A stretch of 64,000 nt of DNA from Thermicanus aegyptius DSM 12793 (lineage in GTDB: Bacteria > Bacillota > Bacilli > Thermicanales > Thermicanaceae): NCBI RefSeq assembly GCF_000510645.1, contig NZ_KI783301.1, forward strand, positions 2,976,698-3,040,697. Reading direction: 5' to 3'. The position numbers and the translations under genes were made by a program. Below, in pieces: positions 8,145-14,802 of this stretch. Every line of letters begins with the position of its first letter. Positions within the stretch are counted from its first letter, which is position 1. The notes under the pieces were generated by a model, which saw only the letters and a list, made by a program, of their open reading frames with translations, did no database searches and was not told the origin of the DNA.

Positions 8145-8166
8145 TGTAGAAACAATATCCCACACC

Positions 8167-8346
8167 CTTATCTTTCAGAACATAACGTTCTGCAGGAATT
8201 AGCACCTTACCTTCACTCCTGAAAGGATGGAGATCCCCCCTACGATCCCTGGGAGAAGCTCCTCCTTCCAGTCGTTTAGCCCATAGGTATGGGCAGCAGG
8301 TTGCCGGGCGTCATCGGGCCAGTCCCTCAGCCTTCTCTGGATAAGA
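8167..8346 (-). promoter_or_regulatory. SAM-I (S-box) riboswitch aptamer, mtnWXBD
   Basis: The minus strand shows the S-box core. The P1 strands CTTATC and GATAAG close the element. It contains AGAGAAGGCTGAGGGACTGGCCC, the GATGACGCCCGGCAACC core, AAGGTGCTAATTCC and TGCAGAACG. An extended P3-like arm makes it somewhat long. It is followed by the terminator at 8112-8144, so high SAM is expected to stop transcription of mtnWXBD. Confidence 0.96.
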
Positions 8347-8382
8347 GTAATTCTTATTTTCAATTGTCACTCGATGGTCATA

Positions 8383-8615: not shown

Positions 8616-8712
8616 AATCACCAAAACCAAGTGAATTTGATTCTGATTCTCATCAAATCGCTTGGGGCAAATGTATGGATGTAAAAACCGAATAGAGTTT
8701 GACCGATTCGCT

Positions 8713-8880
8713 CTTATCAAGAGATGGCGGAGGGACTGGCCCAATGATGCCCGGCAACCTGCATTTCCCTATACGGGGTGACGGATCGGAGAGGACGGCA
8801 GGATGTTCCTGCACGAAATCTTTGTTTCCGGTCACAGCAAGGTGCTAACTCCTGCAGAACGTACCGTTCTGAGAGATAAG
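8713..8880 (+). promoter_or_regulatory. SAM-I (S-box) riboswitch aptamer, mtnKA
   Basis: The plus strand carries a second S-box. The P1 strands CTTATC (8713-8718) and GATAAG (8875-8880) enclose AAGAGATGGCGGAGGGACTGG, the CAATGATGCCCGGCAACC core, CAAGGTGCTAACTCC and TGCAGAACG. A terminator hairpin follows at 8898-8932, just before mtnK. Confidence 0.96.
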
Positions 8881-8897
8881 GGGTTGGATAGATTTTA

Positions 8898-13582: not shown

Positions 13583-14521
13583 TTAAAAGAAACGTCGCTT
13601 CCAAAAGATGACGGCCGTGGCCGTGGAGAGGAATGCAGAGATCAAGATGGCGATCCAAAAAGAAAAAGGATACGTCTGAAACGGAATCGGAACATTCATC
13701 CCGTAGAAACTGGCCACCATGGTGGGTAAAGATAAAATGATGGTAAAAGAAGCGAGAAATTTCATGACGATATTTAGGTTATTCGAGATGACCGATGCGA
13801 AAGCATCCATCATTCCGCTTAAAACGGCGGAATGGGTTTCCGCCATCTCGATGGCCTGCTGGTTTTCGATGATGACATCTTCCAGGAGATCCTGGTCATC
13901 CTCATACATCTTTAGAAGCCCATTGCGCATCATCTTTTGCATCACGATATTATTCGACTTCAGGGATGTGGCAAAGTAAACCAAGCTCTTCTCCAGATTG
14001 AGAAGGGTGTATAATTCTTGGTTTTTCATCGATTGGTGAAGCTCCCGCTCAATCTCATTGGTCCGCTTGTAGATCAACTTCAAATAACGAAGGTAATGGG
14101 TAGCAATCTGATACAGAATCTGTAAAGAAAAACGCGTTTTCTTGAAGGTGAAGAATTGCTTGATTCGATTCTCCATAAATTCATGGAAAATGGGATGATC
14201 TTTTAAGCTGACCGTGATAAAAGTTTCCGGGGTGATAATCATTCCAAGCGGTAAGGTGTCGAAGATGGGGGAATCCTGATCATCCGTCAAATATACGGGA
14301 ATATTTACGATGATAAGGACTATTTGATCCTCTTTTTCAATACGGGAACGTTCTTCTTCATCCAAAGGGTCTTTCAAGAAATTAAGGGGAAGCTGAAGGT
14401 GTTCCGCCACGCGGAGAATCTCGTTTTCCGTGGGGGAAACAAGATGCACCCAACACCCGTTGCAAATCTCCGTCCGTTCTTCCAGTTGACCGTCGTTGTT
14501 GGTGAAAAAGATTCTGATCAT
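13583..14521 (-). CDS. corA: CorA family Mg2+ (divalent cation) transporter
   Basis: This is a CorA-type pentameric divalent-cation channel of the cytoplasmic membrane. A long cytoplasmic N-terminal domain (residues 1 to about 250) is followed by two C-terminal membrane helices with the signature YGMNVPIPF between them and a basic end (WKRRFF). The 312-residue length is typical. The start at 14521 (MIRIFFTNNDG) has GAGGAGG seven bases upstream; a longer reading to 14557 would run through the leader hairpins and is unlikely. Substrate could be Mg2+, Co2+ or Ni2+ by family; the magnesium-peptide-like leader upstream argues for Mg2+. The ribosome binding site is fully paired in a predicted hairpin. 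Confidence 0.93.
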   Translation of the reverse strand: MIRIFFTNNDGQLEERTEICNGCWVHLVSPTENEILRVAEHLQLPLNFLKDPLDEEERSRIEKEDQIVLIIVNIPVYLTDDQDSPIFDTLPLGMIITPETFITVSLKDHPIFHEFMENRIKQFFTFKKTRFSLQILYQIATHYLRYLKLIYKRTNEIERELHQSMKNQELYTLLNLEKSLVYFATSLKSNNIVMQKMMRNGLLKMYEDDQDLLEDVIIENQQAIEMAETHSAVLSGMMDAFASVISNNLNIVMKFLASFTIILSLPTMVASFYGMNVPIPFQTYPFSFWIAILISAFLSTATAVIFWKRRFF

Positions 14522-14528
14522 GGTTACA

Positions 14529-14603
14529 CCTCCTCTTTTTTTGAGGAAGCTGCCCATCCGGACGATCGATTCAGGAGTCGGCCTTTTGGGCAGACGGACT
14601 CCT
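14529..14603 (-). promoter_or_regulatory. corA leader: competing hairpins and sequestered RBS
   Basis: Three pairings are visible on the minus strand. AGGAGTC (14597-14603) pairs with GACTCCT (14573-14579). CTGCCC (14588-14593), inside that first loop, pairs with GGGCAG (14550-14555). CTTCCTC (14543-14549) pairs with GAGGAGG (14529-14535), which is the corA ribosome binding site. The first two pairings compete (or form a pseudoknot), and the third hides the start site. The first pairing overlaps the end of the leader peptide ORF, so translation of the ORF could change the fold. Confidence 0.65.
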
Positions 14604-14675
14604 TAGACGATCCATCTTCTGCAGCATCCTCGGGCATAAATCGGGATCAGGTTCACCGGTACTTCGACTACCCAT
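14571..14675 (-). CDS. MgtL-like EPDP leader peptide upstream of corA
   Basis: This 34-codon ORF starts at ATG 14675 with AGGAG ten bases upstream and ends at TGA 14571-14573. Its residues 7-16 read GEPDPDLCPR. Enteric MgtL, the leader peptide of the mgtA magnesium transporter, begins MEPDPTPLPR. In MgtL the alternating acidic/proline run destabilises the translating ribosome at low Mg2+ and switches on the transporter. The motif, the magnesium-transporter context and the overlap of the 3' end of the ORF with leader hairpins together suggest the same logic. Translation is not proven. Another open frame through the same RNA exists (see rejected items). Confidence 0.6.
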   Translation of the reverse strand: MGSRSTGEPDPDLCPRMLQKMDRLRSPSAQKADS

Positions 14676-14716
14676 TCAGGCACAACTCCTTTCTTCGAAA
14701 AATAGTTGAGAACTAT

Positions 14717-14722
14717 ATTATA
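14717..14722 (-). promoter_or_regulatory. -10 element of the corA leader promoter
   Basis: A perfect TATAAT on the minus strand lies about 42 bases before the leader peptide ATG, giving a predicted leader RNA of about 190 bases. No good -35 hexamer is at the right distance; ACAATT or TACAAT is the best candidate. Confidence 0.4.
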
Positions 14723-14802
14723 ATACTCTTTTCCGCAAGAATTGTACATAGATTCTTTCGGGATGGGAAGCCCTTTTTCGTCAGCTTGATTACTAGGATA
14801 AC

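Follow-up and report, generated by a model that had tools for sequence, protein, structure and literature searches.

Locus and leader features

The window, a stretch of 64,000 nucleotides from Thermicanus aegyptius DSM 12793, carries on its minus strand a gene for a CorA-type Mg2+ channel, preceded by a leader that contains a short open reading frame (ORF) and the arms of three RNA helices (Table 1). The assignment of the downstream gene to corA in the preliminary description, which had been made from the letters alone, agrees with the Pfam domain and with the YGMN signature present in the protein. The same description had placed in the leader an ORF of 34 codons preceded by an AGGAG site of its own, and this is confirmed at 14571-14675(-), with the translation MGSRSTGEPDPDLCPRMLQKMDRLRSPSAQKADS, residues 7-16 reading GEPDPDLCPR as claimed. 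The sequence AAAGGAG is placed ten bases 5' of the leader ATG, and approximately 50 nt separate the leader stop from the corA ATG (14521), which has its own AGGAGG. Regarding the promoter-like site just 5' of the leader, relatives carry TTTACA...TATGAT at the matching position.

Table 1. Features of the corA locus, with positions in the window and the basis of each assignment
Feature	Position	Strand	Basis
Promoter-like TGTACA-17-TATTAT, weak (9/12)	14720..14748	-	Just 5' of leader
Leader-ORF Shine-Dalgarno (SD), AGGAG	14686..14690	-	Sequence; GGAG(T) kept in alignment A1
Leader ORF, 34 aa, MGSRSTGEPDPDLCPR...	14571..14675	-	ATG at 14675; conserved in 72/81 corA leaders
EPDP codons GAA CCT GAT CCC, residues 8-11	14643..14654	-	Third-position drift, E/D and P retained
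H1 5' arm, leader SD and start codon	14665..14690	-	21 bp duplex, covariation
H1 3' arm, within end of leader ORF	14573..14596	-	H1 duplex and layout in relatives
H2 5' arm, core GAGGATGCTGC (14621-14631)	14606..14631	-	In ORF, ~10-11 nt past last Pro codon; RNAalifold
H2 3' arm, core GCAGCTTCCTC (14543-14553)	14543..14567	-	3' end doubles as H3 5' arm
H3 3' arm GAGGAGGT, corA SD region	14528..14535	-	Pairs with GCTTCCTC (14543-14550)
corA, CorA-type Mg2+ channel (ATG at 14521, end 13583)	13583..14521	-	Pfam PF01544, E 2.3e-55

The window leader folds better than all of 200 shuffles (z -3.8). When compared with Rfam at gathering and lenient thresholds (E up to 10), it matches no known RNA family beyond chance, and a covariance-model search for the M-box (RF00380) found none in the leader and none in its genome. 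A pattern scan of the same genome returned 14 pattern matches, one of them being the EPDP leader locus. Elsewhere in the window, two SAM (S-box) riboswitches are found diverging from each other, at 8165-8347 (-) and 8711-8882 (+), the plus-strand one being directly 5' of methionine-salvage type genes (8953 on).

Conservation of the leader peptide

A CorA protein scan of 84,980 genomes yielded 80 orthologues with 58-73% identity, mostly from Bacillaceae, Anoxybacillus/Geobacillus, Paenibacillus and Sporolactobacillus relatives, giving 81 leaders together with that of the window. Under a strict criterion, which asks for an ORF preceded by an SD and encoding [ED]P[ED]P in its first 14 codons, 72 of the 81 corA leaders possess the motif. 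The layout is common to nearly all of them, consisting of AGGAGTTGA, an ATG, TTG or GTG start, MSSxxxN and then [ED]P[ED]P, with the motif located at residues 5-11. The remaining nine leaders hold mostly near-variants, such as SPDP, NPDP, SPEP, DPRP, EPDS and PGP (PDP, PEP, DP and EP forms); the acidic-proline pattern is lost in two of the 81 (L075 and L132), and a single acidic residue is left in a few. Missing or frameshifted ORFs in orthologues had been named beforehand as evidence against control by leader translation; the ORF is found in nearly all orthologous leaders, and indels between the start codon and the motif keep the frame, with lengths divisible by three, in 80 of the 81 aligned rows.

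For the codon changes, the alignment was built blind to the motif and the changes were counted by Fitch parsimony on the CorA tree. Within the four codons of the motif, the first, second and third positions took 7, 5 and 63 changes, respectively, whereas in the eight codons flanking it positions 1 and 2 together changed 212 times and position 3 changed 110 times (Fisher p ~2e-15). The motif uses all four proline synonyms and all four GAN codons. The aligned leaders of corA orthologues thus retain the EPDP codons through synonymous changes, the outcome that the preliminary description had put forward as a check. This pattern and the in-frame indels indicate that selection acts on the translated peptide, so that the EPDP motif is, as judged from these comparisons, under selection as a peptide. 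The initial claim that the resemblance to the enteric MgtL leader is unlikely to be due to chance therefore stands for EPDP, given the 72 leaders and the codon changes, but not for the PR pair that follows it, which relatives do not keep and which is a chance match.

Conservation is limited to approximately the first 11 residues, and those 3' of the motif are not kept as protein. Leader lengths range from 32 to 52 aa, and the C-termini are not alignable, tracking the RNA arms instead. As for the distribution, a blastn search of the leader against 60 relatives, a sample without close genera, gave no homologue, and several corA genes among those 60 have no EPDP leader, including L032 at 62% identity. 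In a scan of the whole phylum under strict filters, the element was confined to the same class as the window. An isolated leader remnant, SQSSNEPDPDPG, was also observed in L152 (~340-500, reverse complement), with an unrelated opposite-strand gene at the place expected for corA, perhaps the product of a rearrangement.

Helices of the leader and modelled energetics of the proposed switch

The first helix, H1, comprises 21 bp in the window, with -35.5 kcal/mol against a mean of -19.2 and a minimum of -30.5 in shuffles. Among the 72 leaders its median length is 23 bp, it is better than 30/30 shuffles in 66, and it usually contains the leader SD (68) and the start codon (70), while its 3' arm starts inside the ORF in all 72. 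In Geobacillus and in the window, H1 is rebuilt from different sequence. The second helix, H2, formed in the window by GAGGATGCTGC : GCAGCTTCCTC, is found in relatives as GAGGAAGTC, most often starting ~11 nt past the last proline codon and pairing with GACTTCCTC 5' of corA. Finally, H3 is formed by CTTCCTC paired with the corA SD, GAGGAGG. H2 and H3 are mutually exclusive, as they share a strand, and H1 and H2 cross each other, so that both together would make a pseudoknot with long loops.

In alignment A1, 88% of the cells are paired in H1, 88.5% in H2 and 96.8% in H3. Covariation in H1 and H2 is above that of shuffles and slid controls, and RNAalifold recovers H2 unprompted. Conservation of RNA structure without the peptide had also been proposed as a counter-indication to peptide control; in these corA leaders both the peptide and the RNA structure are conserved, as far as sequence comparison reports on them. 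By the same comparison, the ORF, the selection on [ED]P[ED]P, the helices H1 to H3 and the exclusion between H2 and H3 are established.

The switch was modelled with the ribosome blocked at the motif or past the H2 arm, using a shuffled H2 region as a control. With a ribosome placed at the motif, the median cost of opening the corA SD is 3.0 kcal/mol, versus 8.7 kcal/mol with the ribosome past the H2 arm. The two costs differ by more than 1 kcal/mol in every one of 71 leaders, and the cost returns to 8.6 kcal/mol when the H2 region is shuffled. Meanwhile, whole-RNA equilibrium folds have the corA SD masked by H3 in nearly all leaders, and the switch is not visible there. As H3 is dominant at equilibrium, H2 must win kinetically or be helped by H1, and in the modelled switch this kinetic or H1-aided formation of H2 is the weakest step.

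Association with M-boxes and DUF1003 genes

Two of the genomes, L090 and L142, carry a full M-box (160 bits) directly 5' of the EPDP leader and the same corA. In L090 (1606-2003) the order is M-box, EPDP leader and corA, which would place two Mg2+ sensors, both putative, one after the other on a single transcript.

The leader covariance model, when run against 399 genomes from the class, gave matches in 15 genomes. Three of these matches precede DUF1003 membrane proteins, with the leaders MGSRCSDVPEPRS, MGSSGSSNPDPLP and VGSQ...TDPSP, and a search with the DUF1003 protein added further acidic-proline leaders (LDSMPPEPD, LDSMPGPE and MDSSSVNSPSPE). Among the DUF1003 leaders without an M-box, 8/9 cut the SD opening cost relative to shuffles, and some switch via other sequence, GGGGAATTG : CAATTCCCC : GAGGAGTTG. 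In addition, an M-box and terminator followed by a short (M/V)DPEPN ORF precede DUF1003 in L163 (1117-1282), L182 (1118-1284) and L181 (2218-2384, minus strand). These three ORFs overlap the DUF1003 start and give no H2/H3 signal there; they are tentatively read as the same kind of leader.

The presence of M-boxes directly 5' of such leaders, for both corA and DUF1003, ties the element to Mg2+, and DUF1003 may belong to Mg2+ homeostasis. M-boxes were found in 3 of the 15 leader genomes compared to 51 of 151 genomes of the class, numbers that are too small to show replacement of one by the other.

Proposed mechanism and alternative explanations

The corA leader is likely to be a Mg2+-responsive translational attenuator controlled by its leader peptide. 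The leader SD would load a ribosome upon transcription, ahead of the emergence of the H1 3' arm. With sufficient Mg2+, this ribosome would pass EPDP and cover the H2 5' arm, leaving 14543-14550 to pair with the corA SD as H3, and corA translation would be low. When Mg2+ is low, the nascent MGSRSTGEPDP would destabilise or pause the ribosome at EPDP; the halted ribosome would leave the H2 5' arm free, outside its footprint, the anti-SD strand would be captured, and the corA SD would open for corA to be made. H1, closing over the leader SD and start codon, may then lock this ON state. If the halting register of MgtL is transferred here, the H2 arm lies ~20 nt downstream, which is beyond the usual ribosome footprint. 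Having corA on at the EPDP halt and off at read-through is the polarity expected for a Mg2+ importer, and the layout predicts, as modelled, a control of corA translation by SD masking, the conserved H3 favouring translational control over Rho-dependent termination. These results support the interpretation of the preliminary description, by which corA would respond to Mg2+ through abortion of leader translation; we infer that Mg2+ is the signal sensed, the direction of control, and that the ribosome aborts instead of simply pausing.

The same attenuator could respond to a signal other than Mg2+, with ribosomes pausing at EPDP when prolyl-tRNA, EF-P or an ABC-F factor is lacking, so that corA would follow the translation status of the cell. 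There are precedents: in Salmonella, the proline-containing mgtP of the mgtCBR leader is responsive to charged tRNA-Pro (PMC8092293), and MgtL is a target of EttA (PMC11282234). The geometry of the switch is equally compatible with a paused ribosome. However, the acidic residues are as strictly kept as the prolines, with E/D swaps only in most leaders, which is needless for pure proline sensing, and the occurrence of all four proline synonyms in the motif also speaks against it. Considering moreover that the genes downstream are a Mg2+ channel and DUF1003, and that M-boxes occur in tandem, a signal other than Mg2+ seems unlikely.

Less likely still is a translational coupling, where the full reading of the leader would melt H3 and hand ribosomes to corA, activating it. 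Such coupling is suggested by several leaders whose ORF ends within 20 nt of the corA start or overlaps it, but the stop is variable in position, ranging between 5 nt beyond and 48 nt ahead of that start, and the conserved and covarying H2 arm is found in the early part of the ORF, where no helix is required for coupling. Its polarity would also raise corA at plentiful Mg2+.

The strong structure of the leader (z -3.8), placed before a metal channel, could be that of a metabolite or metal riboswitch with an incidental ORF. This is very improbable, because the motif is conserved at the codon level and the conserved structure consists of arms around the ORF, without a conserved aptamer-like core, besides the lack of an Rfam match beyond chance (E up to 10) and of an M-box in the genome. 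Lastly, a small functional protein, although compatible with the conserved start, SD and N-terminal residues, can be practically dismissed, as only about the first 11 residues are conserved and the unalignable C-termini and lengths (32-52 aa) follow the RNA arms.

Comparison with enteric leaders and implications

The Mg2+-responsive attenuator proposed for corA resembles MgtL of mgtA (Salmonella/E. coli), where ribosomes drop off at EPDP when Mg2+ is low, the halted ribosome having the first proline of EPDP in the P site (PMC11282234). In both, a Mg2+ transporter gene is preceded by a short ORF whose product has EPDP close to its N-terminus, the leader has alternative structures, an early stem hides the SD of the upstream ORF (uORF), and an efficient leader translation is predicted to repress the transporter. 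They differ in phylum and in the place of the motif, which occupies residues 2-5 in MgtL and is slightly deeper (5-11) here; in addition, mgtA encodes a P-type ATPase controlled by Rho-dependent termination, whereas here the gene is corA and masking of its SD is predicted.

By analogy, mgtQ, located 5' of mgtB in Salmonella, would be the closest mechanistic match, as the transporter SD is what gets masked. Its ribosome destabilisation unmasks the SD (PMC8092293), and it shares with the present leader the acidic codons in a short ORF and the exclusive stems (1:2 and 3:4 versus 2:3), one of which masks the transporter SD. However, mgtQ has 8 aa and is intergenic and enteric, compared to 32-52 aa, a first cistron and another motif arrangement here. 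CorL of corA (Salmonella/E. coli) is also a leader ORF before corA with its uORF SD within a stem and a leader translation inversely related to corA expression, but a single proline is reported in its conserved N-terminal region and Rho is involved (PMC11552253). Regarding Bacillota, the M-box (ykoK, RF00380) is likewise a Mg2+ sensor before Mg2+ transport genes, and stands in tandem with the EPDP leader in some genomes; it is, however, an aptamer RNA without a leader peptide, and was not detected in the window leader or its genome.

When MSSxxxNEPEPxS of the relatives was compared by eye with the enteric leaders, no likeness was seen beyond the EPDP motif. Convergence is thus likely, and the EPDP leader of Bacilli is probably a convergent counterpart of the enteric MgtL and MgtQ leaders. 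A broader view, towards which we lean slightly, is that Bacilli evolved, independently of enterics, an [ED]P[ED]P Mg2+ sensor based on ribosome stability, which would act through a conserved anti-SD switch on the translation of at least CorA and DUF1003 and which, in some lineages, lies behind an M-box, as two sensors in series. Searches of the open-access literature, subscription journals and preprints lying outside them, turned up no description of such a Gram-positive leader, and the EPDP leader is likewise missing from two surveys of structured RNAs and uORFs. In the literature found, the destabilisation of ribosomes by the nascent chain as a means of Mg2+ sensing is confined to enteric bacteria. 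If the broader view is true, a widely conserved and probably convergent version in Bacilli would turn this way of sensing into a general principle, would give Bacillota a second mode of Mg2+ sensing beside the M-box, and would connect the DUF1003 membrane proteins, which have been little studied, with Mg2+ homeostasis.

The leaders also offer dozens of natural variants ([ED]P[ED]P, EPEPEP, NPDP and SPDP) that are usable for probing ribosome destabilisation in Gram-positive bacteria. Among those where the pattern was lost, L132 is the leader of a second CorA copy of Anoxybacillus calidus, in which the SD layout is kept and DLES replaces EPEP; as a loss that arose naturally, it could be used as a control.
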